Shown in pieces: positions 1,849-57,639 of a DNA stretch of 64,000 bases. Below the pieces are notes generated by a model. It was not told the origin of the DNA. It searched no databases and worked only from the letters and a program-made list of their open reading frames with translations. The first letter of the stretch is position 1. The number at the start of each line of letters is the position of its first letter. The position numbers and the translations under genes were made by a program. The stretch comes from Carex sylvatica (Eukaryota > Streptophyta > Magnoliopsida > Poales > Cyperaceae). Where the stretch lies: positions 186,001-250,000 of the forward strand of contig CAXKVR010000088.1 of NCBI GenBank assembly GCA_964058845.1, in the 5' to 3' direction.

Positions 1849-3535
1849 ATGTTTTATCTCAGTCAAATTGAGCAGAATTTGCCGATGCCACCCCACTTAC
1901 TTAGGCCTCCTTTACTTGATTCAATAAGGGGTGAACTTGAAAATCTTTATTTAGATAAGGTATGATAACAGATAATTACTCCCTTTTTTTTTCTGCTGAT
2001 TTAAAGATTTGTTTACTACAAAATCTCCAATATGACACCTGAAGTCCAAGTTTGTAAAGCCTAGTTAAACCTAAACTAACTTTGACTTGTATCACAAGTG
2101 TACCAGACTGGCCTGGTATGTTGATCTATGCTTGTTATTTCAAATAATTAGGTCTAGGTGTATAGCTTTTAACAATTTTACTGGTACTTCTTCCAGGTTA
2201 TTGCAAATTTGGGGCTTTGTATTTCAGTATATGATATTCAATCAGTTGAAGGTGGTTTTATTTTCCCCGGAGATGGTTGTGCAACTTATCAGGTGTATAT
2301 ACGTTTTCTTACTTAGGTTATATCATTGTTTTTTGTTTGATAATTATAATCTGTGTGCTATTTACTAAATTTTGTACTGGTGTAGGTTAGTTGTAGGTTG
2401 GTGATGTTTCGGCCTTTTGTTGGAGAAGTCATTGTAGGAAAGATAGAGAGCTGTGATGAGTTTGGTTTGCAAGGTTATTTTTTGTAATAATTTGTTCATT
2501 GAACTTATGCTTAAAGAAATTTTCATTATTTAGCAATTATTTACTTTCATATATGTATATATTTTTGCTCCTTCCAGTGTCTCTTGGGTTCTTCAATGAT
2601 ATTAAGATACCTACTCGCCTCATGATGGAACCCAATCACAGGTTATATTCTTTTTTTCTTAATTTCTCCAAAGAGAGGTGAAGAGTAGGCGGGAATGGAA
2701 CGGAATGGGAAACATTATTTTTGTATTCTCTTGGTTGGTTGTTTCTTTTCATTACACTCCAATTTTACACAATATAAGCTTTAAAAAAATTATATGAGGT
2801 TAAAAGAGTAACTTTCTTTAACCTTATCCAATCAAAGAAGATTGATCTATGAAATTTCTGTTCCTCCCTTTCTATCCCTTTTGAATACCCTCTACTCAAA
2901 CAATTTGTTAATGTAATTTCATACTTTTCTTTGACATAGTTAGTTCTGTACTTTAATGGAATTGTTATTATTAGAGGAGAAGATGGGATATGGGTGTGGG
3001 ACTACGGTGAAGGCGGAGGAGATTCAAACTATTCTCTTGATATAGATGAGGAGGTATCCCTTTTTTAATTGTCATGGTTTTGTGTTTTCTAATTAGCATG
3101 GTTTTCAGTAAAATGATATTACTAAGATAAAATATGTTTTTACCAATAGATAAGATTTCGAGTAGCAAATGTGAAATTCCCTCCTATTCCTGTTGAACAA
3201 TCTGAGGATTCTAAGCCCTTCTCGCCAATGGAAATTACTGTAAGTTTATCTTTTCTTTTATAAATAATATTTGCTTAAAATGAAGACTTGGAAATTATCT
3301 TCTAACTTTGACCCAGGGTGCATCACAAGTGCATCACATATTTCCCCAATAAACTTGAATATATTGCTTTTCCATTTTATGTTTCCCCAATAAAACTAAT
3401 TTGATTATGCTGTGCCAATTAAATATCACAACATAGATTTTTAAATTTTACAAAGTGGTCGCTGATTGAATCTACTATTTTGTTTGTTAGGGAGATATAA
3501 ATGGTGATGGCTTGGGTCTTGTCTCTTGGTGGTAG
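1849..3535 (+). CDS. RPC8: DNA-directed RNA polymerase III subunit RPC8 (Rpb7/Rpc25 family)
   Basis: Seven coding exons join in phase: 1849-1959, 2197-2292, 2386-2473, 2578-2641, 2975-3053, 3150-3239 and 3491-3535, giving 190 residues. All introns are GT-AG. The protein starts MFYLSQIEQNL, has LYLDKVIANLGLCISVYDI and VEGGFIFPGDGCATYQ in the Rpb7-type N-terminal domain (about residues 1-75), then FRPFVGEVIVGKI and SLGFFNDI at the start of the S1-like Rpc25 domain, and ends GDGLGLVSWW. These are hallmarks of RPC8, not of the Pol II, IV or V paralogues RPB7, NRPD7 and NRPE7. In the family it pairs with the RPC9 subunit to form the stalk of nuclear RNA polymerase III, which makes tRNA and 5S rRNA. 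The frame stops right after SWW, whereas some plant homologues, as I recall them, carry a short acidic tail. The gene looks intact. Confidence 0.9.
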
Positions 3536-4157
3536 AGAGTAGAGTACAATTATGCCCATGTAAAGGCGCTCATTATTCAAGTTAGCATACTTAGCTAATT
3601 ATTTTTCTTTAGTATCATTTTTGTTTTACAATTTCTTAGATGCATGTAATGTTGAGTTATTCGTAGGTGGTTGTAAACTAATTCAATTATCAATTTTGTT
3701 GCAATGCTACTGAGAAATATGACATTTCATTATTGGTATAATGCTGATTCAATCCATGTGGCTCTTTTATATTGGTCCAGCACAATTCCTTTTTTATTTT
3801 GTACACCCTTAAAATAAAGCAGATGCAGTATCAGTCAGAACATCAACCAGAAACCATGAATCAACATTGAAAGTTACTGTACAATCTTGCTATTTCAAAA
3901 TTCAACCCACGTTTAAAGTTAAATACAATTTTTGAAGAAAACCATTTGCATAATATACATGTCTAACAAACTCAACTTTCATGATCTAGAAGAATTTAAA
4001 GATATACAAAAATATGATAATAGTATCATCTGTTTCAATGTAGTATTTTTGTATGATATACAATTGCAATCTGGTCCATAAGATTTGTTTTTTAATGTCC
4101 AAAAAATTGAAGTACAACAAATACAGCAACTAAAAGCTACAAAATATTTTTAGGAAG
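3536..4157. other. Intergenic stretch between RPC8 and CDSP32
   Basis: The first part should be the RPC8 3' UTR; an AATAAA-like signal is not distinct. The rest is AT-rich with no recognised element. The two genes converge here, since CDSP32 is on the minus strand and its stop codon is at 4158. Confidence 0.5.
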
Positions 4158-6640: not shown

Positions 6641-7670
6641 CATGAGAAGGGTTCTAATGCATATTTTTTTCATATCTCATCGTATCTCATATTTTATTTT
6701 TTCATTTTTAATGTCTAAATTGTCGATCTGAACCGTTTAACATAATATTTATACTAAAATATGCATAGAGATAAAATTTTATATTTTTTTGAAATTTTTT
6801 TACTATTTTTTAAGATATATACAAAATTAATGTTTTTGAACAGTTTAAAAAACAATGATTTTCTATCCATCTTAAAAAATAGTAAATAATTTTCAAAAAT
6901 TATAAAATTTCATACCTAACCATATTTTAGTATATATATCATGTTGAACGGTTCAGATCGACAATTTGAACTTTGAAAACGAAGATATAAAATAGGGGAA
7001 ATTTCACGTATACCTCTCAAAAACTTTAAAATTACCTATTTCCCCCTCTAAACTTCAAAAAGTCACATATTTATCCATTTCATTGTCTTTTATATTAAAA
7101 CTCATTCTAAATTTATAAAATATCTATTTTACCCTTCATTAAAAGTATAAAATGCCCAATCGAACTCAAATTTGAATCTAAAGGGTTTCTCTACCGTCCG
7201 ATCCGCGCGCATCACAATAAGATTATTGCATGTTCCCTTTAAGATTCATGCTAATCTAGCCCACATGAATCTCAAGCAATTTTGATCTATACACATTGCT
7301 TTAATTTCCGTGTTTGTTCACTTCAAAATTCGTGCTGATCTAATGTGCACGGATCTCAAAGCAATTCCGACGGTAGAGGACCTTTAGATTCAAATTGGAG
7401 TCAGATGGGTGTTTTATGCTTTTTAATAAAAGGATAAAATAGATATTTTATAAATTTAGAATGTGTTTTAATAGAAAAGACAATAAAATGGGTAAATAGG
7501 TGAGTTTTTGAAGTTTAGAGGGGATATGTCATTTCAAAATTTAGAGAAGAAAATATATAATTTTGATATTTTTGAGAGATATATGTGAAATTTCTCATAT
7601 TTTAAAATATGAGATGTAATGAGGTATAAAAAATATGAGAAATTAGAACCATTCTCTTTTCTCATATATC
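6641..7670. repeat. Hairpin MITE interrupted by a second MITE
   Basis: The outer element begins GAGAAGGGTTCTAATGC and ends ATTAGAACCATTCTC. Within it, GTCGATCTGAACCGTT near 6721 pairs with AACGGTTCAGATCGAC near 6948. Removing 6995-7595 restores a continuous hairpin of about 430 bp, so the inner element inserted into its right arm. The CGATCTGAACCGTT core and the AAAATTTTATA / TATAAAATTT arms relate it to the hairpins at 31653, 32061, 33070, 48676 and 57142. Confidence 0.7.
6995..7595. repeat. Inner MITE of about 600 bp
   Basis: The terminal inverted repeats read GGGGAAATTTCACGTATACC on the left and a complement ending GAGATATATGTGAAATTTC on the right. The pairing continues inward for over 150 bases: TTCATTGTCTTTTATATTAA pairs with TTAATAGAAAAGACAATAAA, and TCTAAAGGGTTTCTCTACCG pairs with CGGTAGAGGACCTTTAGATT. 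The centre (about 7195-7370) is less AT-rich and contains CCGATCCGCGCGCATC. There is no open frame of note. Confidence 0.7.
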
Positions 7671-8696: not shown

Positions 8697-9345
8697 ACTA
8701 CTAGAATTCTGATTTTTTGCATAGATAAAAAGGTGTCTTGTTGCATGGGCTTACCCATGCAACAATCCTAAAACATGTCAGTTGCATGGGTTACCCATGC
8801 AACAAGCCCCAAAAAATACCGTTGCAACAACCCTCGTTGCAACTACTCAATTTCCGACTTGTTGCATGGGTTATCCATGCAATAATATCTGGAATACTTG
8901 TTGCAATGGTGAGCCCATGCAATAAGTACCCATGCAACAAATCTGATGCAGGAAATATTTGCAACGATATAGCATAGAGTATTTACAACGATATAACATT
9001 GAATAGTTGTATGGATATAGTGTGTGGGTCCCATGGAGTATTTGCAACGATAGATGATTGAGTAGTTGCATGGATATAGTGTGTGGGTCCCATGGAATAT
9101 TTGCAACGATAGAGGATTGAGTAATTGCATGGATAAAGTGTGTGGGTCCCATGGATTATTTGCAACGATAGAGGAGTGAGTAGTTACATGGGTAAATAAC
9201 GTGGGTCTCACATGGTTAGTTGCATGGATAATTAACTTATTAGTTGCATGGGTAAAGAAGGTGGGCCCCACCAGGTTATTTGCAAGGATATTGTCTGAGC
9301 CACATTTGTATAGATTTTTCGATGCAAAAAACTATCGTTCCTGAA
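8697..9345 (+). mobile_element. CACTA-like transposon end with subterminal repeats
   Basis: The stretch starts CACTACTAGAATTCTGATTT, the CACTA-type terminus, and then holds dense subterminal repeats. These are palindromes of the form TTGCATGGGTTACCCATGCAA at about 8740-8940, followed by a 59-bp unit repeated about four times (successive CCCATGG at 9030, 9089 and 9148) containing TATTTGCAACGATAGA and TTGCATGGATA. Dense subterminal repeats of this kind are typical of the CACTA superfamily, where the transposase binds them. A mirror-image copy of this terminus lies at about 30757. No matching right-hand terminus was found nearby and no transposase frame is visible, so the element is non-autonomous, broken, or extends to about 12.2 kb. 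Confidence 0.65.
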
Positions 9346-13087: not shown

Positions 13088-13092
13088 TAATT

Positions 13093-14559
13093 TGATATCT
13101 CCATATTATATCTGAATTATGGCCCTAATTTACAATGAAACCTGTGCTTTAAAGCCTATTAATGTTGACTTTTTACTTATATTTCGATGAATTGTGGTAC
13201 TGCTATGTTTTGTTTGGTATTTTGCAGGAAAAAGGGCGAAAAACTGGTTCTGACAACTTTTCATACGGCCCGTATGATATTCTGTGCGGGCCGTACAAGA
13301 ACTGCCTAACCACACAGAAGGATCCACAACAGAGGCACAAAGTCTCCAAGTCAAAGCCCAGGCATACGGGCCGTACGGGATCTCGTACGGGCCGTACAAC
13401 GCTGATTCGGAAAATCCAGCTGGAATCTGAATTGAGCACGATTTGAGGAGCCGAAAAGGAAACCCCTCCAGGCGTGATCTGGGGCATTAAAGGAGATATT
13501 CCACAGCAGGAAAGGGGATTAATAGGCAATCAATCAATAACTTTCCATCATTCATTCTATCATTGATTCTTACTAGGTTACTTGGACAAGAGGAAAAGAA
13601 GAAGAGAAGGGAAGAACGCGAGTTTTCCACGGATCTTCGGATTTTCCACTGTTTTGTCATGAACTCTTTTATTTCTTGTTATTTGTGCTATCTCATGAAT
13701 ATGAGTAGCTAATTTACTTAGTTTCTAGGGGTAAGATGTAGTTTCTAGTTTTGTTTTGTTGTATGCTACTTGGATTTTGTGTTGAACGCTTTGTTTTTAC
13801 TTCGTTATGTAGTATTTTTATTGCTCTATTTGTGCTTGCTTGAATCTGATTAGTCATCCCGTTAGATGAATGCGCACATCTAAGTGTTAGGAGCCAAGTC
13901 TATGAAATTCATTCCAACCGAATAAAGTATATGAAGTAGGGTGAAACCAAGGAGTACCCGAAAGGCGAAACTTTCCTCGAGGCGAAAGTCCTTGGATACT
14001 TTTAGTAAACTAACGAGTAACTTAGATAAATTAGGCCAAAATGCGAAAGTTGAGGTTTAACGCATCTAAGAGGGAAGTACTTGAGTCCGGTAATCGGGTA
14101 TTAGGCCAAAATGCGAAAGTTGAGGTTAGGTATCTAGATCTGGACAAAAGAAATCCTAAACACAGTATCAACACAGAAAACAGTAGCTGCAGCATTAACT
14201 TGAGGTTCCATACGGACCGTACGGGAATCTGTACGGGCCGTATGCCTTGAGACTGAACAGAAATGAAATCTGAACCCTGGAAACTCCTTTTTATCAATTG
14301 GAAACAACTTTAATTATCTTTTATTGTCTTTTAATCAGTAGAATTGTTAGAACTAAAACCAAACCAATTTCTCTCACTTCTAGAATCTTAAGTGATTTTA
14401 GGATAAGTCCGGTGTTTTTATTCCGTCCCTGCGGATCGATACCTGAGCATACTCAACGACAGGATAGTACACTTGCTATCTGAATTGACAGAGTATAACA
14501 AAGGTTTAAAAAGTATAGCTTGCTATACTGAAACTTTTTGGCATATTCTCGTGCGATCA
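13093..14559 (+). repeat. 5' LTR of the Athila-type element
   Basis: It starts TG and ends CA, and is 1467 bp long. I found four differences from the 3' LTR: at 13154, 13166, 13192 and 13307 (3' positions 22911, 22923, 22949 and 23064). It contains three paired-palindrome modules (13262, 13363, 14209) and an internal direct repeat, TTAGGCCAAAATGCGAAAG, at 14031 and 14101. No TATA box is obvious. Confidence 0.95.
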
Positions 14560-14565
14560 AGTTTT

Positions 14566-14582
14566 TGGCGCCGTTGCCGGGG
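14566..14582 (+). other. Primer binding site, tRNA-Asp type
   Basis: TGGCGCCGTTGCCGGGG begins six bases after the 5' LTR and is complementary to the 3' end of plant tRNA-Asp, including the CCA. This is the minus-strand primer site for reverse transcription and the usual choice in the Athila lineage. Confidence 0.9.
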
Positions 14583-14843
14583 ACGGCAACTAAAATTCTA
14601 TACTTTTTCTTATTTTTGCTTGATTCTAGATTTTAATTTTAATTTTTCGTATTCCATCTTTGCAGGAACATACTGGAAGAGTCACTGCCCAAGAACCACT
14701 ACCAACTTAGAAGCAAAGGGCAAACTTCCAACTCATTTGTTCCAGCACCACCACATCTGTCACCTCTCCGTACGGCCCGTACAAAATTCATACAGGCCGT
14801 ACAAACCGACAACAGAGTCCAGACAGATCCAGAACAAAACAAA

Positions 14844-17800
14844 ATGAGCAACCACGGTGCTGAACAAGATCCACTCAACGAGGGTACTGGACAAGGTCAA
14901 CCCAACGAGGATCAATACTCTGATGACGAAGGAGCAAACTATGCGCCAAGGACGTTGCGAGAGTTCAATGTCCCGCGAGCTGGAGATGTTAGAGGAGCAA
15001 TCCGATTGCCAAGGATTGTAGGCAACCAACCCAACTTCAATCCGGGCGTTGTAAACATCGTGCAACAAAACACATTCCATGGCATGGATCATGAGGATCC
15101 ACATGCCCATGTTCAAACCTTCCTTGAATGCTGTGCCACCATTAAAATTAATGGCGCAATAGCTAATTATATTAGACTTGCTTTATTTCCTTTCACTCTT
15201 AGGGATAAAGCCAAGAAATGGTTAGGGTCATTACCAAGGGATTCAATCACCACTTGGAGGGAATTGTCCAAACTGTTTTTGACCAGATTTTTCCCCCATA
15301 AAAGAACTGCCAAGGTTAGGACCCAACTGACCAGTTTCAAACAAAGGTCTGATGAACCACTGAATGAGGCCTGGGAAAGGTTTAGGGAATTGCAATACTC
15401 TTGCCCACATCATGGTATTCCTGAATGGTTACTTATTCAGTCCTTTTATGCTGGTTTAACTGATACCACTCGTACTTCTGTAGATGCAGTTGCAGGTGGA
15501 GCTCTCATGGATCGAGACGCTACTGAAGCAATGAACTTAATCGACAATATGGCGACTAACCAACAGTGGTCCGGCCGAGAGGGCAATCGACCAACTGGAG
15601 GAGGTCGACTTGAGCTCGATCAGATCACAGCTCTCACCGCCAAGTTTGACGCTATGCAGAAGGCTTTTGACAAGATGAGTGTCAAAGCACTCGGTAATCA
15701 GCAACCACAGCCTTGTGTTATGTGTGGAGACGAGGGGCACGAGTATGAGAATTGCCCTCTTGCGCAAAGGGATGAAGGGCCCGAGCAAGTTAACTCTCTC
15801 AACAGTGAACCATCCTACTTCCCAAAACCTCCTTTCAGCCGAACCTATTCCAAGGATCCGATTGAACAACAGAATTGGAGGTGGAAGCAAAACAATCCCA
15901 CACAATTCAACAACAACCCTTCTGGCAGCAACAACAACAACAACCGCAACTTCTACAACAATGCTGCATTCAATAACTCAAACAACCGACCACCATATTC
16001 TGGACCATCTAAGCCCTATGTTGCCCCTGCAGTAGAAAACTTCATGCATGAACAAGGGAAGATGAATCAAATGCTTTTCGAACAGATGCAAACGATCAGT
16101 GCTCAATTGGCAAGTTTGGCCCAAAACAAACCTCAAAGTGGGAGCCAAACTGCACCACCACAACCTGGGATGCTACCAAGCCAACCAGAGATTAACCCTA
16201 GGGGAGAGGCCAAAGCGGTAACATTGCGAAGTGGGACACAGTACCAAGGACCAGCAATACCTGTCGAGCCAGAAGTCGATCATACGGTCCGTACGAATCC
16301 CATACGGCCCGTACCAACACCCCCTGCGATTTCTGAACAGTCAAAGCCTGATCCGATTGAGGTTGTGACTGAGACAACAGACCATACGGTCCGTACAAAT
16401 CCCGTACGGCCCGTACCGAATGAAACTGATAAACAGAAAAAGAAGGTGACCGAGAAACCACCGCCCTACCGGCCACCAGTACCATTTCCACAGAGACTAG
16501 CCGAAACCCGACTCAATGAACAATTCTCAAACTTTCTTGGAGTTCTCAAGCAATTGCACATTACCATCCCATTCACCGAGGCTTTGACCCAAATGCCAAC
16601 CTATGCTAAGTTTCTCAAAGATATCCTATCCAATAAACGAAGCTTGGGGGGGCATGAGACGGTGAAATTGACTGAACAGTGCAGTGCTATCCTGAGAAAT
16701 GAACTTCCACCGAAATTAGGAGATCCGGGTAAATTTTCCATTCCATGCACGATTGGCAAAGCAACCATCCGACAAGCTTTATGCGATTTGGGGGCTAGTG
16801 TGAGTCTCATGCCGCGAACTATCTTCGAACGAATGGGTGTAGGCGAGCTTAGACCTACACGGATGACTTTACAACTTGCGGATTCTTCGGTGAGACTACC
16901 ACTTGGCATAGTGGAGGATGTACCGGTTCGAGTCGGTAAGTTCTATGTGCCCGGTGATTTTGTTGTGATGGAAATGGAGGAAGACAAGGAGGTCCCTATT
17001 ATTCTAGGACGACCGTTTTTGAGAACCGCCGGGGCGCTAATCGATGTGAAAAATGGGACTTTAACCTTGAACATTGGAGATGAGAAAGTTCACTTTCAAA
17101 TCGACCGAGCAATGAAGTATCCTGCTCAATCCGAATCGTGTTATATGGTCGATGTGATTGATGAATTAGTTGAAGAGAAGTTAATGGAGCAAATCAACAA
17201 CTCTCTAAGGTATCATTCTGATTTTTTATCTGATTTGCAGGCTGAAACAGGCGATCTTGAGAGAATTTGCGCAGCAGACATGACACCTGTCTGTCTGGAA
17301 GATTTTCCGTACGGGCCGTACACAGATCATACGGACCGTACAACAGACGAATTTAAAACAGAGAAGCTGGAGATTGAGAAGGAACCAAAAGGCCAGTCTG
17401 AAGCTGAGGCATACGGTCCGCACGAAACCCATACGGCCCGTACAACAAGCCAGACAGCACAGACCACTCCCGAATTAAAACCTCTCCCAGCCACTCTCAG
17501 GTACGAATTCCTTGACTCAGAAAAGACATGTCCTGTCATTGTGAATGCAGGGTTGACCCCTGACCAAACCGCCAAGCTCATGGAGAAGTTGAAAATCCAC
17601 AAAGGCGCGATTGGGTATTCTATCAAGGACTTGAAGGGGATCGATCCAACCACTTGCACACACAGGATCTTGCTAGAAGACGACCACAAGCCTTCAGTTG
17701 AACACCAAAGACGGCTCAACCTGAATTTAAAAGAGGTAGTAAAGAAAGAAATTTTAAAACTTTATGAAGCAGGTATCATCTACCCGATTTCTGACAGCAA

Positions 17801-20492
17801 ATGGGTGAGTCCCGTCCATGTGGTTCCCAAGAAAGGAGGAGCAACAGTGGTGAAAAATGAGAAAGAAGAGATGATTCAAACGCGCGTTGCAACCAGTTGG
17901 AGGATGTGCATAGATTATCGGAAGCTCAACGCGGCTACACGCAAGGATCACTTTCCCTTGCCATTTGTTGATCAACTCCTTGAGAGGCTTGCTAACCACT
18001 CATATTTTTGTTATCTTGATGGTTATTCAGGTTTCTTTCAGATTCCCATTCACCCGCAGGATCAAGAGAAGACCACATTCACATGCCCATACGGTACCTA
18101 CGCATACCGTAGGATGCCTTTCGGTCTTTGCAATGCACCTGCGACTTTTCAGAGAGCCATGATGGCTATTTTTTCTGATTTTATTGAGAAAGAAGTTGAA
18201 ATTTTTATGGATGATTTTTCTGTATACGGTACCTCTTTTGATGCTTGTTTGGCTAACTTGTGTAAGATTTTGCAGAGATGTGAAGAAGTCAATTTAGTCC
18301 TCAATTGGGAAAAATGTCATTTCATGGTCCAAGAAGGAATTGTCTTGGGGCATGTTATCACCTCTAGAGGGATAGAGGTTGATAAAGCAAAAATTGAGGT
18401 AATCGAGAAACTCGAAATCCCAACAAATGTCAAGGGGGTTCGAAGTTTTCTTGGACACGCCGGTTTTTATCGCCGTTTCATAAAGGACTTCTCAAAAATC
18501 GCGAAACCTTTGACCAATTTACTTATCAAAGATTCTGATTTTATTTTCACTGATGATTGTGTCAAGTCTTTTTGCAGTTTGAAGGAAGCTCTTATCTCTG
18601 CACCTATCTTACAGCCGCCAGATTGGTCACTACCATTTGAGCTGATGTGCGACGCAAGCGACTATGCAGTCGGAGCAGTTCTGGGGCAACGGAAAGACAA
18701 AAAGCCGTGTGTTATTTACTATGCTAGCAAGGTGCTAGACCCGGCCCAAATGAACTACACCACAACCGAAAAGGAGCTTCTCGCCATTGTATTTGCTCTC
18801 GACAAATTCAGATCATATCTGGTGGGCTCGAAGATAGTGGTCTACACAGATCATGCCGCACTAAGGTACCTCTTAAGTAAGAAAGATGCAAAACCAAGAC
18901 TGATTAGATGGATTCTTCTTTTGCAGGAGTTCGATCTTGAGATAAGAGATACGAAAGGAGTCGAGAACTCTGTAGCGGACCATCTGTCACGTCTTCATTG
19001 GGAAGAAGATACCACAATTAAGCTCCCGATCAATGACTCATTCCCCGATGAACAACTCTTTCAAATCAGTTCTCATCTGGACGACATCCATACGGGCCGT
19101 ACAGAAGTTTATACGGCCTGCACACTCCAACATACGGACCGTACACAAATTCATGCGGACCGTACAAGTACCAACCAGTCCAAACAGCAGACTCCCTGGT
19201 ATGCCGACATTGCGAATTACCTGGTCTCTGGAGTTTTGCCCGCCACAATGTCCCACCAACAGAAGAAGAAACTGAGGTCCGATTCCAAGTACTACTTTTG
19301 GGACGAGCCCTACCTCTTCAAGGTTGGAATTGATGGCGTATTCCGACGTTGTGTCCCATTCGAGGAAACAGACTCTATTCTTGCACATTGCCACTCATCC
19401 GCTTATGGAGGGCACTCTTCATTCTCTAAGACCACTGCCAAGGTATTACAATCTGGTTTATTTTGGCCTTCTCTTTTTAAAGATGCAAGATCTTTTGTTA
19501 TAGCTTGTGACAGGTGCCAAAGAACTGGAAACATGACGAGACGAAGTGAGATGCCTCTCAATTTTATCCTTGAGGTTGAGATTTTTGATGTTTGGGGCAT
19601 CGATTTCATGGGTCCATTTCCCTCTTCTCAAGGGAATGAGTATATTTTGGTGGCAGTCGACTATGTATCAAAGTGGGTTGAGGCGATGGCATGCCGAAAA
19701 GCTGACTCGAATTCGGTAAGAAAGTTTTTCAATGAGATCATTTTCCCTCGCTTTGGTGTGCCTCGAGCCGTCATCAGTGACGGAGGCAAGCACTTCATCA
19801 ATCGACAATTCGCGAAACTCTTGAGCCGACATGGGGTGACTCACAAGGTATCCACTTCTTATCACCCTCAAACTAATGGCCAAGCTGAGATTTCTAACAG
19901 GGAAATCAAGTCTATTTTAGAGAAAACCGTCGCAAGGACAAGGAAGGACTGGGCTTTCAAGCTGCATGATGCACTCTGGGCCTACCGCACCGCCTTCAAG
20001 ACACCGATTGGCATGAGCCCTTACAAGCTGGTGTATGGGAAGTCGTGCCACCTTCCCGTTGAAATTGAGCACAAGGCATTCTGGGCCACAAGAGCGATCA
20101 ACATGGACCTGCTTGCAGCTGGAGAAAAGCGTGTCCTCGACTTGCATGAGCTAGAGGAAATGAGGTTGCATGCGTATGAGAATGCGAAGTTTTACAAGGA
20201 AAAGACGAAGCGCTTGCACGACCAATGCATCTCACCTCGCCAGTTCAAAGAGGGAGATCTTGTACTTTTATTTAATGCTAGATTGAGAATTTTTCCAGGT
20301 AAACTCAAATCAAGATGGTCAGGCCCATTTCAGGTAGAGAAAGTGTACCCTTTCGGAGCAGTTGATATCTGGAGCAAAGAAAGTGGTACCTTCAAGGTAA
20401 ATGGTCAGCGTCTCAAGCACTACGTTGCTGACCACTTGATGGATGAGCGGAATGTTCAGTTTCTTTCTGACCCCGCTCAGATAGCAGTTTAA
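14844..20492 (+). CDS. Gag-Pol polyprotein of the Athila-type element
   Basis: A single uninterrupted frame of 1882 codons, with no frameshift between gag and pol. Gag covers about residues 1-450; its zinc knuckle [14 protein letters not shown] (CX2CX4HX4C) is at about 291-304. The aspartic protease motif CDLGASVS is at about 647. Reverse transcriptase has [23 protein letters not shown] and FMDDFSVYG (about 1120). RNase H has [13 protein letters not shown] (about 1268) and [11 protein letters not shown]. Integrase has the zinc-binding H-H-C-C start [12 protein letters not shown] (about 1514) to CDRCQ, then catalytic D (GIDFMG), D (SDGGKHF) and E (PQTNGQAE). The C-terminus has no chromodomain. 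Three stretches between gag and RT, and one between RNase H and integrase, are translations of the palindrome modules (for example [12 protein letters not shown] and [12 protein letters not shown]). The product would form particles, copy the RNA and integrate the cDNA. Confidence 0.97.
16281..17442 (+). repeat. Paired TACGGNCCGTA palindrome modules inside gag-pol
   Basis: Modules start at 16281, 16383, 17308 and 17410, with further ones at 19089 and 19131. Each has two 11-bp palindromes starting 20 bp apart (21 in the last two). The first four form two sets, each 102 bp apart; the last two are 42 bp apart. The same DNA is read in different frames (HTVRT, YGPY, IRPV, HTDRT). Outside the coding region, modules occur at 13262, 13363, 14209, 14769, 20705, 21259, 21301, 22405 and, in the 3' LTR, 23019, 23120 and 23966. 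Confidence 0.9.
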
Positions 20493-20532
20493 GTTGAAAG
20501 GTGGTCTAGCTAAAGACCTTAAATGAGCGCTT

Positions 20533-20550
20533 CTTGGGAGGCAACCCAAG
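20533..20550 (+). other. Hairpin after gag-pol
   Basis: CTTGGGAGGCAACCCAAG forms a six-base-pair stem with an AGGCAA loop, 40 bases after the gag-pol stop. As I recall, a near-identical string follows pol in many Athila elements. Its role is not known to me; an RNA-level function is plausible. Confidence 0.6.
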
Positions 20551-21354
20551 CATTTTTAAAATTATTTTGTTTAGTCATTTCTCTTATTGTTATTACTTTA
20601 GTTTCTGAATATTTAATTTGCTATTAGTTTTAATTTGGATTTTTCATTTTTGTAGTTGTCTTTCAATTCTGATCAGATAGGAGAAGAAATCATCTCTGCA
20701 GGTTGGTACGGTCCGTACAAAATATCATACGGGCCGTAGGGCACCCATCCGATGCAGAAACTCAAGGGGCGCGACCTTTTCTCTTCGTGTTCCTTCGCAT
20801 CAATTCGCGTCCCTTCGAATGGACCATCTTCCCTTTTATACCCAACCCCCCCGACAGACTCTACCCTACACCACCTCCTTTTTGTCGTTTTCTTCCTACG
20901 GACCGAACACCACCCCGTATAACCAAAACCCTAGCCGCCGCAACTTCTCCTCCCCCGCTCTCCGCCTCTAGCTACCCACCGGCCGCCCACTCTCCGCCAC
21001 CCTTCTATCCGCCTCTAGCGGATCGCTGCCACCTCACCTCCGCACCACCCTTCTCTTTTCCACCGGTCACCGATCTTCTCTAGCGGCTCGCCACCACCGG
21101 TCACCATCTCTAGCAGAGCACCACCGCCCTCGTTCGCTGCTACACCCTCGTGATTCCTTCCAAGCCGCACTACAAATCCCTCGCCGCCGACAACTTTTCT
21201 ACCAAGACACCGACCGAACCCTACCAGCCGCCTCCTTCCCCTCTGAGCACACACCAGCCCTACGGCCCGCACAGACTCCCCATCCAGGCCGTACCAACCA
21301 CCGTCCGACCCGTACAAATCCCTCTCCGGGCCGTACCACTTCCTACTGACCGCT
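20551..21354 (+). other. Non-coding spacer between gag-pol and the env-position ORF
   Basis: The first part is T-rich. The second (about 20800-21350) is very C-rich, with many CCACC and CCGCC strings, unlike the rest of the element. It contains palindrome modules at 20705, 21259 and 21301, the last two degenerate. A 126-codon open frame at 20703-21083 is probably a by-product of the low-stop composition. Confidence 0.5.
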
Positions 21355-21969
21355 ATGTCTGGTGAGCGCCGTCAAAAGCGGCGCCAAGACCGCTCCCCCA
21401 CACCACCCCGTCATCCCTCACCAGAGCCCTATGACTCCGGCTCTGACCGCACTTCCTCTGGTGAATACACCGACCGCGCCGACCGCTTCGCGGCACGGTA
21501 CTTTGAAATGCCCACTCGTCAGATGTACGAGAACTTCATCTCTTTACAACGGCGAGTATTCGAGAACACCGCCATGGTTCACTTCGACACACTCCACGCT
21601 CTTGGAGTCGAGGATGATTTCAACCTTCTCACCGCTGGAATTGGGTTCAGCCCAGATTTCTGAAACATTCGCAACCCCGCTTACGAGATGGACACCAAGG
21701 AATTCCTCTCCTCTCTCGAGCTGAAGTTGGACAACCACGATGTCCTCTTCATCAAATTCTGGCTCTGTAATCAAACCCATCGCGTCTATCTCTCCTCTCT
21801 ACGCGAGTGGTTCGGTTTCCATCGCGAGCCCACTACTGACACTCTCAGTTTCCGACCTGGGTGGGATCGAGATACCTTCTGGGCCATGATCACCGGCTGC
21901 CCTCGCTCCGCCAATGCATCATACCGAGCACGCTACATCCCTCACCCGGTTCTTCGTTTGTTTCTATAA
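21355..21969 (+). pseudogene. Env-position ORF of the Athila-type element, broken
   Basis: The frame opens with MSGERRQKRRQDRSPTPP, runs 102 codons to a TGA at 21661-21663, and continues in the same frame (NIRNPAYEMDTKEF and on) to a stop at 21967-21969. The part after the TGA has LWFRFHREPT-like, FWAMITGC and YIPHPVLRLF motifs, resembling the plant-retrotransposon ORF family often annotated as Athila ORF-1. Family proteins are much longer, so the 3' end also seems to be missing. I see no signal peptide or membrane segment, so a true envelope function is not supported. Compared with the intact gag-pol, this ORF has decayed or was never needed. Confidence 0.6.
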
Positions 21970-22833
21970 TCTAAGGGGGGTGATTAGTTATTTTCTTTAT
22001 TTTGCATTTAGTTTGTCTTAGTTTGTTTCTGTGTTTGCATGTTTTGAGGATTAAATCTGTGTGAATTGCGTGAATTAGGGTTCAATTTGAAAAATTTTGG
22101 TTGTGAAATGGTTGAATTTGGGAAATTGGAAATAACCACACATTTGGTTGAAAGAATTGTAAACGATAGTCTGTTTTGGGACTTTGTGGGATTGAATTGA
22201 ATTGTGTCAAGAAAGCATTTGAAACCGGAATATGCCTTGTAAAAATAGAAAAATGGGATTTCAAAGTAATAGAAAGATTAGGACATCCATTGGTATGAAT
22301 GAATATCATTGGATGTGTGTATTCATGATGCATACGAAGGGAAAAGATGGAGAATATAAGAGTACTGGCAATAAGCCGTGTTAGGCGCCTTTGAGCTCGT
22401 CTCCCATACGGACCGTACCCAGACCATACGGACCGTACACCTATAAAAAAAAAAAAAACCGAAAAGAGCCTTTACAAACATCAACACACGTAGTCCGTGA
22501 CTTTCTGACCTAAGCTTGTTCCAAGCTTGGGGGAATTTCCAACCACAAATGAGGGCATAAATTTGGTAAAGAATGAACTATTGATACATTTGATTGCTTA
22601 ATTCTTACAAATAGCATTACATTCTTGAAGTTAGAGTTTGATCAATTGAGTTGTGGGGTGAATTAAAGTTGACCAAAGGAAACCAAGTTACTATCTGAAA
22701 TGACTCCAATGGATTTCTAACGAACGCAAAATCATGCACCTTTTTCCTCTTAGTAGATTAAGTTGCATTTAGGTAAGTCCAACAACCCGAACCACACCTA
22801 AGTTAGAATTTTTGCTTGAGGACAAGCAAAGTT
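21970..22833 (+). other. 3' non-coding region of the Athila-type element
   Basis: This is AT-rich non-coding sequence with one palindrome module at 22405-22439, an A14 run at 22445 and a polypurine-tract-like string at 22522-22538. It probably replaces the missing end of the env-position ORF. Confidence 0.6.
22522..22538 (+). other. Internal second polypurine tract
   Basis: CAAGCTTGGGGGAATTT is identical over 17 bases to the polypurine tract that directly precedes the 3' LTR at 22834-22850, 312 bases downstream. It could serve as an additional plus-strand primer site, like the internal PPTs of some retroelements. Confidence 0.6.
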
Positions 22834-22849
22834 CAAGCTTGGGGGAATT
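22834..22849 (+). other. Polypurine tract
   Basis: CAAGCTTGGGGGAATT directly abuts the TG that begins the 3' LTR. The GGGGGAA core is the expected plus-strand primer for reverse transcription. Confidence 0.8.
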
Positions 22850-24316
22850 TGATATCTCCATATTATATCTGAATTATGGCCCTAATTTACAATGAAACCT
22901 GTGCTTTAAATCCTATTAATGTGGACTTTTTACTTATATTTCGATGAAATGTGGTACTGCTATGTTTTGTTTGGTATTTTGCAGGAAAAAGGGCGAAAAA
23001 CTGGTTCTGACAACTTTTCATACGGCCCGTATGATATTCTGTGCGGGCCGTACAAGAACTGCCCAACCACACAGAAGGATCCACAACAGAGGCACAAAGT
23101 CTCCAAGTCAAAGCCCAGGCATACGGGCCGTACGGGATCTCGTACGGGCCGTACAACGCTGATTCGGAAAATCCAGCTGGAATCTGAATTGAGCACGATT
23201 TGAGGAGCCGAAAAGGAAACCCCTCCAGGCGTGATCTGGGGCATTAAAGGAGATATTCCACAGCAGGAAAGGGGATTAATAGGCAATCAATCAATAACTT
23301 TCCATCATTCATTCTATCATTGATTCTTACTAGGTTACTTGGACAAGAGGAAAAGAAGAAGAGAAGGGAAGAACGCGAGTTTTCCACGGATCTTCGGATT
23401 TTCCACTGTTTTGTCATGAACTCTTTTATTTCTTGTTATTTGTGCTATCTCATGAATATGAGTAGCTAATTTACTTAGTTTCTAGGGGTAAGATGTAGTT
23501 TCTAGTTTTGTTTTGTTGTATGCTACTTGGATTTTGTGTTGAACGCTTTGTTTTTACTTCGTTATGTAGTATTTTTATTGCTCTATTTGTGCTTGCTTGA
23601 ATCTGATTAGTCATCCCGTTAGATGAATGCGCACATCTAAGTGTTAGGAGCCAAGTCTATGAAATTCATTCCAACCGAATAAAGTATATGAAGTAGGGTG
23701 AAACCAAGGAGTACCCGAAAGGCGAAACTTTCCTCGAGGCGAAAGTCCTTGGATACTTTTAGTAAACTAACGAGTAACTTAGATAAATTAGGCCAAAATG
23801 CGAAAGTTGAGGTTTAACGCATCTAAGAGGGAAGTACTTGAGTCCGGTAATCGGGTATTAGGCCAAAATGCGAAAGTTGAGGTTAGGTATCTAGATCTGG
23901 ACAAAAGAAATCCTAAACACAGTATCAACACAGAAAACAGTAGCTGCAGCATTAACTTGAGGTTCCATACGGACCGTACGGGAATCTGTACGGGCCGTAT
24001 GCCTTGAGACTGAACAGAAATGAAATCTGAACCCTGGAAACTCCTTTTTATCAATTGGAAACAACTTTAATTATCTTTTATTGTCTTTTAATCAGTAGAA
24101 TTGTTAGAACTAAAACCAAACCAATTTCTCTCACTTCTAGAATCTTAAGTGATTTTAGGATAAGTCCGGTGTTTTTATTCCGTCCCTGCGGATCGATACC
24201 TGAGCATACTCAACGACAGGATAGTACACTTGCTATCTGAATTGACAGAGTATAACAAAGGTTTAAAAAGTATAGCTTGCTATACTGAAACTTTTTGGCA
24301 TATTCTCGTGCGATCA
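22850..24316 (+). repeat. 3' LTR of the Athila-type element
   Basis: 1467 bp, the same length as the 5' LTR, with four substitutions found and no gaps. It carries the same three palindrome modules at 23019, 23120 and 23966. It is followed by the target duplication TAATT. Confidence 0.95.
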
Positions 24317-24321
24317 TAATT

Positions 24322-28060: not shown

Positions 28061-30757
28061 TTCAATACTTGTTGCATGGATAACCCATGCAACAAATAGT
28101 TCTCAAAAATTGTCAAAACTTGTTTCATGGGTTACCCATGCAACAAATATTGTCTAGATTCTGGAGACTTGTTGTAACAGTAAGTCCATGCAACAAATCG
28201 GTCTCAAATATTTGTTGCATGGATTACTGTGACGTAGCGAAATCTGAAGAATATTAAAATAATAAAAATTTCGAAATATTAAGTTCATCTGAATTTTTCT
28301 GAATTTAAATCTAATGCCTTGATATATTTTTTTTTCTAATTTTATTCTGAATTTTCTGAGTCGAGGCATTTAGAATCGAATTTCTGATTTGATCGAATAA
28401 AAATAAACCTATCCGAATTGAAATATCAAATGGATCATTAAATTATACATATGAATATATCTATATGTATATATATATGCTATAATGCAAATTTCTATTT
28501 AAATTAAGCAAGGGCTTTTCTTGAAAAATTTACATATATGCAATATTGGAAGTTTAATGGGCCTATTAGCAAAATTGCCAAAACTAATCCAAAACCTTGA
28601 TCTTTTCTCTTCCTTTGGCCGTGACCCCTTGTGTGTATACGTGTGTGTGTGTATTGTGTGTGGTGGGTGGCGGAAACAAAGAGGAAAAGAGAGGGAGAAG
28701 GTGAGAAGAGAGAAAAAAGTGAGATCCGAGTACACCGAATCGATCAGACGTACGCGAAATCGAGTTTGGAGCAAAGCACTACCACCTTGATCATCTCCTT
28801 CTCTTCAATTTGGTTTAGCAGGACAATCAGGTGAATCCCGGAATACCGAAAGGAGTTCAGACCAACCGTAAGCGACACGAAAAGTACAAAGGTGCGGGGG
28901 TTCACGGGATTTTTCCTGAGGTTCAATTAGGAATTAAATAGGACGTTTTTAAATTGCATTTTGAATTTCTGATTTCAAGCATCATCTGAGCATTGCATAA
29001 CTAATTGAACTGTTTTATCTGTTGATCTGCATTCTGGTATGGTTTACCGATTGAACTGTTATTCTGATTCTGATAGAGAATGAAACCACAGTGAATTGCT
29101 ACTATTATATATATATATCACTGTAAGTGATATTCTGTTCTGCGAAATCTAGAGTATACACTAGATTTCGATTTCGGGAACCATATGCGCATTGGGGAAC
29201 GACCCCTCTGAGTCCAAACCGGTTGGAATGGGGATCTGTTATTCTGTGACTATAACTGTGGTAGATAAGATTCTGTTATTCTGATTTCTGCTCTGATTTC
29301 TGGAACTAAATACTGGAAAGGATATATCTGTATGATTGGAACTGTAATGTCTGATTAAGAACCAGTCTTTTGTAAATGGTTAAGCCAAAGCACTGCAGAT
29401 GAGGGTCTGATTTGATTGCACGGGGAGCGACATCTGTAGGTGTATGTAACCCTACAGATGCAGGTATGTTCTGGGACCAGTTCGGTGGAACATCTGCATG
29501 TGCTACCAGATATCTGAGTTTAATTAAGACCCAATATTCTGATATGTTTCTGATGATTCTGTTTAAAGGCATTTAAAGATGTAGAATCATTTGATTATCG
29601 ATTCAAAGCTTTGCATTCATGCTTTAACTCTGATTTTAGTTCCGTAGTTAATTCTGACGTGAATATCTGATAAATCCAGTAGCTTCGGCACTGAGATAAA
29701 CCGCGAAAAGGTTTTTCTCACCCGTTTCCTTGTGAAACATTTCAGGAAAGAAGGACTAGAGGCTTTCGGGATCAGACAGTGAGCTATCTGAGGTGTTAGG
29801 TATATGTATGCCCTGTTTTGAGATCGTTGTACTTGTTTAGTACTTGGATCAACTTTTGTTGTATATATATCCAACTAACCGGACTTGCGTAAATATTTCT
29901 AAACGGTTTCGATTTATGTTTTAAAATTTTATGTGCTTGCTTTATGCTTTCCATGCTATGTGTATGTATGCTTTTATGTTTTCAAAGTTTATGTTTTAAA
30001 AGTTATATGGTCTTTTGCATATATGTTTTTGTTGTGACATGATATGAATTTGGGGGTTTAAATGAATACGGGTGGGATGACCGGCGTGGAGGGTCTATAC
30101 TCCACGGTACCTGATATTTATAATTCTGACTAATCCGGGTAGATATAAATAAAAAAAAAATTAAATTTGGTTTTCTGATATGATAAGTCATTGTTCTATT
30201 GGTTTTATCGAATCGAATTTACAAAGGCATGTATAAAAGTTTTGAAAAGTTTCGGATCAGTTTTAAACTGATTTCAGATTTAATAAAATTGATTAAGTGT
30301 TCGGTTTGGGATAAAAACACCATTTATCTCATCGTAAATGCCTGGTGAATATATACGATCTATATATTCACGGCGATACCGTCATGCCCCTGATCTCGGG
30401 GTGTGACAATTACCCATGCAACTGTCTAGTCTAAATTTGGAAGACTTGTTGCATGGGTATGAGATGAGTTGTTGTATGGATATTCATTAGAATATACTTT
30501 CTATCCTTGCTGGTGGGTCACGGGTCATCAAATATTTGTTACATTGATAAATAAGAGGCAGTTGCATGGATAACCATCAAACTTGTTGCATGAGTAACTG
30601 TTGCATGGGACTACCGATGCAACAAATTTAACTGTGTCAGAAATGTCCGATGCAACAAATTTAACTGTGTCAGAAATGTCAATATTTGTTGCAACGACAC
30701 TACTTATCCATGCAACAAATATTTTTATCCATGCAAAAAATTCAGATTTTAGTAGTG
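28060..30757 (-). mobile_element. CACTA-like fragment split by a solo LTR
   Basis: TTGTTGCATGGATAACCCATGCAAC palindromes flank an inserted LTR on both sides (28072-28227 and 30409-30750). At the right edge, TTCAGATTTTAGTAGTG is the reverse complement of a CACTACTAAAATCTGAA terminus, matching the CACTA-like end at 8697. Without the LTR only about 520 bp remain, so this is a small derivative or remnant in the opposite orientation to the copy at 8.7 kb. Confidence 0.6.
28228..30408 (-). mobile_element. Solo LTR, 2181 bp, probably a Tekay/Del-type Ty3/gypsy family
   Basis: Read on the minus strand it starts TGTCACACCCCGAGATCAGG and ends CTACGTCACA. It is flanked by a perfect 5-bp duplication, ATTAC (28223-28227 and 30409-30413). 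No internal region is present, so the element was reduced by recombination between its LTRs. The TGTCACACCCC start is typical of Tekay/Del chromoviruses, as I recall; the lineage is an inference. A copy in the opposite orientation begins at 62714. Confidence 0.85.
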
Positions 30758-31494: not shown

Positions 31495-31652
31495 TGATTG
31501 TGTAGAACTGTAGAAGTGATTCAAAAGAGCATGGAGGAACAAACAATTTGAAATTGAGACACTTGATGAGTTAGTATGATGTAATTTTATTTTACGGAAA
31601 AAATATAATAATTATAATTTTTATAAATAATATATATATAGAGAGAGAGAGT

Positions 31653-31985
31653 ATGGCTACGGTGCTATGGGTTGCATAGAGGGCTACGGTGCTACGGCTC
31701 AATATTTGAATTTTTAAAATCCTAACGGTCGATTCGAACCGTTCATCTTGTTCTCCATATTAATATGTGTTTGGAGACCAAATTTTACATATTTTGAAAA
31801 AAATTTACTATTTTTTTAGATAGGTAGAAAATTAAATATCTGAATGGTGTAGACCATTGAATTTTGCACTCATCTTAATAAATAGTAAAAAAATTTCAAA
31901 AAATATAAAATTTGGTCTCCAAGCACATTATTGTGGAGATCACATCTAACGGTTTGGATCGATGATTTGGACTTTGAAAATGTAT
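31653..31985. repeat. Hairpin MITE, CTACGGTGCTATGG family, one end lost
   Basis: It begins TATGGCTACGGTGCTATGG. The inner arms ATTTTACATATTTTGAAAA and TTTCAAAAAATATAAAATTT pair, as do TTGGAGACCAAATTTTA and TAAAATTTGGTCTCCAA. The right arm ends after GATTTGGACTTTGAAAATG without the complement of the first about 60 bases. It is homologous to the full copy at 57142. Confidence 0.7.
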
Positions 31986-32030
31986 AAAATGATTGTGATA
32001 ACTTGTTGTAACTCAAAAATTGTTGTAACT

Positions 32031-32060
<30 letters not shown>

Positions 32061-32064
<4 letters not shown>

Positions 32065-32479
32065 CTAATGTGTATTCGAATGTATATGGGCCGAAATATA
32101 TACGGTCCAAATTTGACTTTTCAAAATTCAAACAGTCGATCCGAACCGTTCATCTTGTTCTCCATATTAATATGTGCTTGGAGACCAAATTCTACATTTT
32201 TTTTGAATTTGTTTACTATTTATTAAGTATTTTACAAAATTGTTGATCCAACGGTGGCTTAACAAAACAGTAAAATCAGCAGCCACCGTTGGATCAACAA
32301 TTTTGTAAAATACTTAATAAATAGTAAATAAATTCAGAAAAATATAAAATTTGGTCTCCAAGCACATATTAATATGAAGAACAAGATGAACAGTTCGGAT
32401 CAACCGTTTGAATTTTAAAAAAATTGAATTTAAATCATATGTATTTCGATCCATATACATTCGAATGCACATTAGTCAC
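32061..32479. repeat. Near-perfect long hairpin MITE of 419 bp
   Basis: The left end GTGACTAATGTGTATTCGAA and the right end TTCGAATGCACATTAGTCAC are complementary. Pairing runs almost to the centre, where AACGGTGGCT and AGCCACCGTT close on a loop of about 20 bases. The inner arms share TTGGAGACCAAATT with the related hairpins. It is flanked by TATATA, the left side being a (TA)n tract at 32032-32060. A transcript would fold into a stem of about 200 bp. Confidence 0.85.
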
Positions 32480-32862
32480 GAATATATATATAAAAAGAGA
32501 GAGAAGGCTTACCCCCTTTCTCCAATACCTACTGCCTCTGCAATCTGCATAGGAGTCGATAATTTAGGGGGAATTTATGAGACTTCTGTAGAATATTTTT
32601 CCGTCAGCTAATATTTTATATATTATTATAGAAATAAAATAGTCGAGCATGCTCGAAAACTTTATCTATTAATTATTATTAGTATTTTTTTTTCATTTCT
32701 TGGAACTCGTCCACATGTATGGATAATCGGATATTATGACTTACAATTAAAAAAAAAATGCAACTGTTGAATAGAAACCCAATTGAAATTTTGAAGAATT
32801 ATTTTCTTTTTGTGACCATTTAAGGAAGTTTAAGCTGGTCACGTTTGGGTACAATTCCTTCA

Positions 32863-33118
32863 AAAAAATTAAGTATTTGATCAAAATTAAATAATTTTAA
32901 ATATTTTATTGAATACATAAACAAGAGGGTTTCAATACCTCATATTGTATATTTTTATTTCCAAAGTCCAAATTGTTGATTCAAAAAAATTAAGTATTTG
33001 ATCAAAATTAAATAATTTTAAATATTTTATTGAATATATAAACAAGAGGGTTTCAATACCTCATCTTTTTCATACCTCATATTGTATATTTTCATTTCCA
33101 AAGTCCAAATTGTTGATC
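32863..33118. repeat. Tandem duplication of about 125 bp
   Basis: TTAAGTATTTGATCAAAATT through GAGGGTTTCAATACCTCAT and CCAAAGTCCAAATTGTTGAT occurs twice in a row, starting at about 32869 and 32989. The second copy leads directly into the hairpin element at 33070. Confidence 0.8.
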
Positions 33119-33400
33119 CGAACCATTCAACATGAGTTTCATATTAAAATATATTTGGAGATAAAATTTTATAATTTTTGTAAATTTGTTACTATTTTTT
33201 AAAATATGTACAAAATTATTGTATCTGAAATGTTAAAAAATAATAATTTTTTACATATTTAAAAAAAAAATTATTTATCACTTAATATATTTTAATATAA
33301 AAATTAGATTAAATAATTCAGATTGATAATTTAAAATTTAAAAATATAAATATATAATATAAACAATAATGAGGTACGAAAGAAATGATACATTGGAACC
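33070..33400. repeat. Diverged hairpin MITE
   Basis: TACCTCATATTGTATATTTT at the left pairs with a right part ending ATAATGAGGTACGAAAG. The inner arms GATAAAATTTTATAATTTTTG and ATATTTTAATATAAAAATTAG are partly complementary. The core TTGTTGATCCGAACCATTCAAC is the family signature also found at 6735 and 32145. It lies close upstream of the cyclophilin gene. Confidence 0.6.
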
Positions 33401-33539
33401 TTCTCTCTAAACAATTCTCTTTTATAAGTTTTCAAAGTCTCGAACTCTCCGTACATAATACATCCCGTCCCTTGGAAGTTAGAACGGAAACGGCGAAATT
33501 TACATTTTAGAAACGGAAACACGGTCTAAAACCTCTCCC

Positions 33540-57141: not shown

Positions 57142-57546
57142 GAGTAAGGCTAGGGTGCTATGGATTGCATAGAGAGCTACGGTCCTACGGCTCAATATTC
57201 GACTTTTCAAAATCCTGACGGTTGATCCGAACCATTCATCTTGTTCTTCATATTAATATGTGTTTGGAGACCAAATTTTACATTTTTTGAAATTTTTTTA
57301 CTATTTTGTTAGATAGGTAGAAAATCACTTGATCTAAAAATTATACACCATTCATATATTTGATTTTCTAACTATCTAAAAAAATGGTAAATTTTTTTCA
57401 AAAAATGTAAAATTTGGTCTCCAAACACATATTAATATGGAGAGCAAGATAAATGGTTCGAATCGATCATTAGAATTTTAAAAACTCAAATATTAAACCG
57501 TAGCACCGTAGTCCTCTATGCAATTCATAGCACCATAGCCTTACTC
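57142..57546. repeat. Complete hairpin MITE, CTACGGTGCTATGG family
   Basis: It starts GAGTAAGGCTAGGGTGCTATG and ends CATAGCACCATAGCCTTACTC. The arms include GGAGACCAAATTTTACATTT and AAATGTAAAATTTGGTCTCC. It is flanked by identical 10-base repeats ATATTAATTA (57132-57141 and 57547-57556). The long TSD fits a Mutator- or hAT-type origin better than a Tourist- or Stowaway-type one. Confidence 0.9.
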
Positions 57547-57639
57547 ATATTAATTATCTGTCAAGATCATATTTTCCGAATCTTTGTAACTTTCATCTAC
57601 TTTTGATGATTCCGAGTCTTTCTATATAGCAGGTTTGAA

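Follow-up and report, generated by a model that had tools for sequence, protein, structure and literature searches.

Repeated or dyad-symmetric sites for host factors, acting as enhancers, occur in the long terminal repeats (LTRs) of several plant retrotransposons, as in the BII box of Tnt1, in Tto1 and in the heat elements of ONSEN; to our knowledge these boxes are few and restricted to the LTR, and we know of no concerted switching or lattice among them. In Drosophila, the gypsy element carries a dozen sites for a single DNA-binding protein, the host insulator protein su(Hw), in one 5′ untranslated cluster. A nearer case is that of the Sireviruses, for which Bousios et al. 2010 described palindromic repeated motifs in 13 elements; with a single exception these have a CGG-CCG core, and they occupy the LTRs and, in elements with ENV, also a linker mostly upstream of it (PMC2829016). 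In the parts of that paper drawn on here, the motifs are termed Sirevirus-specific, the classic Ty1/copia elements that were examined lacking them, and a regulatory role is proposed, a common binding factor not having been found; two- or three-motif arrays and box I of Tnt1 are also mentioned (PMC2829016). A second precedent comes from the VANC proteins of VANDAL transposons: according to the portion of the source used, VANC21 binds YAGTATTAY, and the targets of VANC6 carry AGTTGTCC/AC, as tandem repeats that differ between families and are also present in the unrelated AT9TSD1 (PMC5735166). In this line, we analysed a window (the whole stretch of 64,000 nucleotides; Carex sylvatica, GCA_964058845.1, contig CAXKVR010000088.1, positions 186,001-250,000, forward strand) in which one Athila-type Ty3/gypsy retrotransposon carries, from LTR to LTR, paired copies of the 11-bp palindrome TACGGNCCGTA. 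We conclude that family-specific dyad sites on a two-turn lattice are real and selected. Protein binding at the paired sites, or modules, is likely, and with a probability of about 0.7 they would be sites at which a dimeric protein with sequence-specific affinity for DNA binds in a family-specific manner, whichever genome encodes the reader.

The window contains 24 exact TACGGNCCGTA sites, and 24 of 24 fall within 13264-23999 of that single element, both LTR copies counted, as do all 32 sites with up to one mismatch. In 300 first-order Markov simulations of 13089-24316 the number of exact sites never exceeded one (mean 0.003) and exact modules did not arise, whereas the element has 24 such sites and 9 exact modules with a spacer of 9-10; a comparison with shuffled sequence had been proposed in the earlier note on this DNA. 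That note had counted 17 modules (three per LTR, one in the leader, six in gag-pol, three between pol and open reading frame 3 (ORF3) in the env position, and one in the 3′ non-coding region), with palindrome starts 20 or 21 bp apart, once 22; every first-palindrome position, the internal spacing and the distances of 101, 102, 42 and 43 bp between named neighbouring modules were recovered in the window, some partners being degenerate (two mismatches at 19112, 21283 and 21304). The element and its modules comprise:

13088-13092 and 24317-24321: target site duplication TAATT, a perfect 5-bp duplication
13093..24316, + strand: whole Athila-type element, a single continuous copy, delimited by LTRs and target site duplication
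13093..14559, + strand: 5′ LTR (TGATAT...GATCA), 99.7% identical to the 3′ LTR
13264..13295: module 1, LTR
13365..13396: module 2, LTR
14211..14242: module 3, LTR
14566..14582, + strand: primer binding site TGGCGCCGTTGCCGGGG, which we take to be of the tRNA-Asp type
14771..14801: module 4, leader
14844..20492, + strand: gag-pol open frame of 1882 amino acids (gag, protease, reverse transcriptase (RT), RNase H, integrase)
16283..16313: module 5, gag-protease linker
16385..16415: module 6, gag-protease linker
17310..17340: module 7, protease-RT linker
17412..17442: module 8, protease-RT linker
19091..19122: module 9, RNase H-integrase linker, second palindrome degenerate
19133..19164: module 10, RNase H-integrase linker
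20707..20738: module 11, between pol and ORF3
20897..20907: lone site with one mismatch and no partner
21261..21293: module 12, degenerate, upstream of ORF3
21304..21335: module 13, degenerate, upstream of ORF3
21355..21966, + strand: env-position ORF3 remnant (ATHILA ORF-1 family, PF03078), split into short frames
22407..22437: module 14, 3′ non-coding region
22839-22849: polypurine tract TTGGGGGAATT, directly before the 3′ LTR
22850..24316, + strand: 3′ LTR
23021..23052: module 15, 3′ LTR counterpart of module 1
23122..23153: module 16, 3′ LTR counterpart of module 2
23968..23999: module 17, 3′ LTR counterpart of module 3

The same arrangement extends over the genome, where counts were made in one assembly of 63,982,083 bases and 950 contigs with the reversed pattern of each word as control. 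Exact single TACGGNCCGTA sites number 1166 (23 reversed), and exact pairs with a spacer of 9-11 number 400 (0 reversed), with 1 pair at spacers 0-8 and 0 at 12-30, so that the spacing is not random, in keeping with the earlier note. For the core alone, CGGNCCG pairs at site spacings of 20-22 amount to 902 versus 7 reversed, and those at the fifteen spacings 23-37 pooled to 240 versus 60, many of the listed rows being other GC-rich repeats. In contigs C1, C2, C27, C28, C36 and others, CGGNCCG cores are spaced differently in further repeat families rich in GC (CGGTCCGGGTATGGTACCCGG..., CGGTCCGCTATAGCGCGTAGCG...). Moreover, the modules persist in close relatives of the window element (family A): in a set made of the window copy and 29 others, the 30 best of 145 RT matches (94-100% RT identity), at most one of the 12 gag-pol sites is missing from 29 of the 30 when two mismatches are allowed, and the truncated copy retains 8 of 8. 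The absence from closely related copies that the earlier note had named as a refutation is not observed.

Boxes placed within coding sequence bring their own internal control, the codon position. The 12 gag-pol sites are grouped in three linkers (gag-protease, protease-RT, RNase H-integrase), with one cluster in each; 0/12 overlap a Pfam domain, the six domain stretches covering 0.34 of the frame, and the 9 exact ones occur in all three phases (6, 2 and 1), in agreement with the idea that modules are translated in differing frames. When 29 copies were compared with the window copy along a 3.8 kb stretch, differences amounted to 70/3406 in the arms of the palindromes, 24/340 at the centre, 174/1858 in the spacer, 604/11080 in the flanks and 3029/92090 in the rest. 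By codon position (1/2/3), the arms differ at 38/1246, 12/913 and 20/1247, the flanks at 191/3626, 171/3770 and 242/3684, and the rest of the stretch at 442/30736, 319/30678 and 2268/30676, from which it follows that the linker protein is nearly unconstrained and that the arms are constrained relative to the linker at every codon position. CpG transitions occur at 23/1306 in the sites, 55/809 in spacer plus flank and 488/6809 in the rest, and 582 circular shifts of the site mask within the linkers gave a minimum of 84 differences, against the 70 observed. The strongest result came from how variants are shared among copies: single-copy variants have the same density in the 120 arm columns (23) as in the 451 neighbouring ones (82), whereas of the variants in at least three copies 3 fall in the former and 69 in the latter (p = 0.0009, column p-values being approximate because the copies are related and columns inside one site are not independent). 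The arms are thus constrained during replication of the element and decay normally after insertion. Meanwhile the centre base is free, with 6/12 centre columns variable and 4 variants shared by at least three copies in those 12 columns, as expected from the earlier statement that it varies freely while the remainder is kept. Altogether, selection acts on the DNA word, not on the protein, while the element replicates. That note had offered selection or copying at the DNA level, and both were encountered: constrained arms across 30 copies, and copying in the form of an inverted array common to two lineages (see below).

The assignment of the host element to the Athila type holds, as it carries an ATHILA ORF-1 remnant (PF03078, E 2e-5) and a gypsy-type pol whose Pfam domains follow the order RT-RNase H-integrase, so that it is not a Ty1/copia Sirevirus. 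No chromodomain match was found in its gag-pol at E <= 0.001 (Pfam), in contrast with chromoviruses of the same genome. Families B and C have open frames at the place of ORF3, and in other copies of family A these frames are also open, with ~470-585 amino acids. The modules do lie in the span originally given for the element, but the element itself continues beyond 24000, to 24316. For comparison with the CpG islands that Sirevirus boxes form, the region 20689-21488 has a GC content of 0.57-0.63 and an observed/expected CpG ratio of 1.1-1.2, the start of the LTR showing 0.44 and 0.88.

Athila relatives in the same assembly, whose RT is 75-89% identical to that of the window copy, fall into families B (copies L046 and L047), C, D (including D140 and D258) and E, which use other words. 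Family B carries ACACGGNCCGTGT and family C TTGCGGNCCGCAA (256 matches in the assembly, 0 reversed); family D has the half-sites AGTGCGG/CCGCACT, with CAGTGCGG found 26 times in D140 (11.7 kb counting both LTRs; 0.15 expected), and family E has ACGGCCAG (8 found, 0.16 expected). The core CGG-N-CCG is common to A, B and C, the D half-sites being TGCGG/CCGCA, and the word-by-family matrix is almost diagonal; exact A-type sites occur in two B copies (2 in C298, 1 in C711) and 6 sites of family C are one mismatch off the A word. The palindromes of sister families stand partly at the same places as in A. Between A and L046, the first base changed from T to C at 12/12 aligned sites (one without a recognisable B site) and the centre at 11/12, with changes in 5/72 cells at positions 2-5, 8 and 9, in 13/36 at positions 7, 10 and 11, and at 96/193 flank bases; L047 repeats T to C at 7 of the 8 sites it keeps. 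In L047, a tandem repeat of ~81 bp (2850-3800) replaces the RNase H-integrase linker modules of family A. Alignment of the sampled C, D and E copies revealed no stretch corresponding to this linker, and therefore the sites there lie in extra sequence present in A and B. Regarding placement, C resembles A, with modules in the LTR and before ORF3, and the pre-ORF3 sites of B are more degenerate. The period of 20-22 bp holds for 16/16 successive distances under 60 bp in A, 12/18 in B (two further at 19) and 10/10 under 50 bp in C; in D140 and the chromoviruses, half-sites alternate mostly at 14/15 and 6 bp, which is the pattern of A but with its phases swapped. Fixed distances between modules, however, did not survive as a rule: sites of different modules in family C are 50-72 bp apart, so the ‘ten turns’ and ‘four turns’ apply to where modules happen to lie in the window family only. 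Across these sister families the word differs, the lattice is similar and the half-sites change their outer bases in concert.

The D word also exists outside Athila. Its unit, GTGCGG-N7-11-CCGCAC, has 1309 matches in the assembly (0 reversed), and the LTRs of the chromoviruses L063 and L064, which gave weak chromodomain matches alongside a full set of gypsy domains, contain the D word. An array of ~310 bp is common to the LTRs of D140 and L064, at 84% identity and in inverted orientation, and two pieces of the D140 array match L063 (190 columns at 82%, 59 at 100%); within D140, linker arrays resemble LTR arrays. A further LTR, L066, has the C word in two pairs 22 bp apart plus one single site; it is taken as a chromovirus LTR from its 74% similarity to that of L063 over 385 columns, and its array gave no alignment with the Athila C array at the threshold used. 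In L067 none of the words was detected. The inverted cassette of D140 and L064 and the unalignable C array of L066 indicate that arrays are exchanged and apparently also re-evolve. A family-C element on C1 adjoins chromovirus sequence, probably by nested insertion (L056, reverse complement, 2-182, matches L064 1043-1222 at 95%).

Of the explanations advanced by the earlier note, the one that best fits the two-turn spacing, the free centre and the half-sites changing in concert is a dimeric protein bound to a single helix face, protein binding being a prediction. The 11-mer would be a dyad of two NNCGG half-sites flanking one free base, and two dyads two helical turns apart would form one docking unit. 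Such sites may act in cis during replication as a regulatory or anti-silencing address over the LTR, the leader, the gag-pol linkers and the pre-ORF3 region. Concerted change of the outer bases would give each family its own address, letting it be recognised, and whole arrays would pass between lineages. Some observations count against this reading. At first codon positions, the rest, which is constrained by the protein, differs less (1.4%) than the arms (3.1%), although the flanks differ more than the arms (5.3%), and simple counts of variable columns give weaker contrasts (arms 29/120 versus neighbours 154/451, p = 0.037; CpG columns 17/46 versus 136/268, p = 0.11; third positions 10/44 versus 478/1221, p = 0.028). 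In family B the right arm is less regular, with positions 7, 10 and 11 changed at 5, 4 and 4 of 12 sites, and three LTR sites are spaced 40 bp; D258 shows spacings of 14 and 21 and none of 6, and family E has a repeated half-site and no lattice.

Who reads the sites is a separate question. A tentative candidate is the ORF3 (ATHILA ORF-1) of the element itself, as a VANC-like protein that chromoviruses would use in trans. By extension, the ‘env-like’ ORF of Athila might be a VANC-like anti-silencing protein and not an envelope, with the boxes as a co-evolving family address that chromoviruses exploit through copied or convergent addresses, a proposal we regard as possible but doubtful. ORF3 diverges much faster than RT, and in one low-confidence structural model (mean pLDDT, the predicted local distance difference test, of 50) VANC21 was the sole clear match. 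On the opposite side, VANC21 was not listed for the model of a family B ORF3 (mean pLDDT 45), DUF1985 was not matched in ORF3 by Pfam or sequence profiles, and the DUF1985 model run over the genome gave three sub-threshold places, none of them at ORF3. Likewise, stop-to-stop frames downstream of pol reach at most 132, 164 and 177 amino acids in the D and E copies sampled, no ATHILA domain was found in the long frame of the L063 and L064 chromoviruses, and four Sireviruses are reported without ENV yet with LTR boxes in the portion of the source used (PMC2829016). ORF3-like stretches also exist inside longer frames (829-1474 amino acids) in C692, C44 and C109, perhaps an Athila lineage with ORF3 fused to another gene.

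A narrower form of the binding-site reading, to which we give somewhat short of even odds, is that of host-factor enhancer boxes, in which a transcription factor family with CGG half-sites drives LTR, and also ORF3, transcription and element families shift among its paralogs. The C word common to Athila and a chromovirus-like LTR whose arrays do not align at the threshold used, and the D word in both Athila and chromoviruses, favour such a factor, as do the CGG-CCG boxes of Copia Sireviruses in monocots and eudicots (PMC2829016) and one maize palindrome common to Copia and Helitrons (PMC10760457), as far as the consulted parts of these sources go. By itself, however, a host factor explains neither the sites within gag-pol nor the concerted word change at all sites relative to a sister with 89% identical RT, and word sharing is compatible with an element-encoded reader as well, because the VANC6 motif also turns up in AT9TSD1 (PMC5735166, in part). 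A functionless short repeat propagating itself, homogenised by template switching or gene conversion, had also been suggested and is improbable: the array copying it calls for is seen in the inverted ~310-bp cassette and in the likeness of D140 linker and LTR arrays, and module spacers are partly alike, but whole-site copying could not preserve the two arms and leave free the base between them, where 4 shared variants in 12 columns stand against 3 in 120 arm columns. The least probable explanation by our estimate is an RNA hairpin per module (for packaging, dimerisation or as a small interfering RNA precursor), for although two self-complementary 11-mers can pair whatever their origin and small RNAs are drawn to maize Sirevirus palindrome regions in the excerpts used (PMC10760457, PMC5311732), the array is kept inverted in another lineage and the centre pair of the would-be 11-bp stem, the remaining pairs being uninformative because each word is a palindrome and complementary anyway, is not kept complementary (A 6/16 and B 2/14, with 4.4 expected from base composition in each; C 0/10, with 0 expected as its centres are all C or T; and 0/186 exact modules over 30 copies, the modules being each counted on both strands and not independent).

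Elsewhere in the window, fold-back (self-inverted) repeats, several of which are akin to one another, were found at 6644-6994, 8737-8935, 31649-33405, 48677-49081 and 57130-57554, and TGCATGG/CCATGCA words, repeated in the fold-back at 8.7-8.9 kb and at 30.4-30.8 kb, constitute another short dyad arrangement. A 1.3-kb inverted repeat (29122-30411 versus 62711-64000, 99.2% identity) probably represents two copies of one mobile element, and the window edge (1-100) holds a short array of CGTATCCG/CGGATACG words.

Compared with known systems, the modules resemble the Tnt1, Tto1 and ONSEN boxes as repeated or dyad sites within plant LTRs, and the su(Hw) array as many sites of one type inside an LTR retrotransposon, the latter being a single cluster in an animal. 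No described function was found for them, in line with the earlier note, but the kind of sequence has been described, as the CGG-CCG repeated motifs of Sireviruses (PMC2829016, in the part used). With those motifs the window element shares palindromes with a CGG-CCG core, in at least 8 copies, in the LTR and before the env-position gene (three modules per LTR and three before ORF3). Unlike the Ty1/copia Sireviruses, the hosts here are Ty3/gypsy Athila and chromoviruses, with sites also in the gag-pol linkers and the leader, a 20-22 bp period and word switching between sister families in one genome. The VANC/VANDAL anti-silencing system likewise has, within the sections drawn on (Hosaka et al. 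2017, PMC5735166; Sasaki et al. 2023, PMC10398659), a short family-specific motif repeated through the element and differing between sister families, motifs that evolve together and turn up in an unrelated element, and a fast-evolving element-encoded protein, whose VANC21 form is the predicted fold match of one of the two ORF3 models. VANDAL is, however, a Mutator-like DNA transposon and not an LTR retrotransposon, VANC motifs are non-palindromic as written and form tandem repeats in non-coding regions, and VANC carries the DUF1985 that Pfam did not find in ORF3. In the VANDAL system, binding of the protein to its motif leads to loss of methylation. The role of the env-position ORF in plant elements was called unproven and controversial (PMC2829016), and a 2026 paper did not settle whether the methylation of Athila is shaped by factors of its own coding (PMC12844716), in both cases in the parts consulted. 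Should the VANC21 fold match hold, the question of this ORF could be reduced to a gel-shift experiment. The differing words of sister families on a similar lattice are a ready specificity panel. If ORF3 were indeed the reader, unrelated retrotransposons in one genome would share or borrow addresses, and the widespread CGG-CCG boxes found in plant retrotransposons would constitute the targets in a general system of self-recognition. Ty3/gypsy hosts, gag-pol linker sites, the two-turn period, concerted switching and the selection test are new with respect to the Sirevirus boxes, and the finding joins boxes of the Sirevirus kind with a co-evolution pattern of the VANDAL type.

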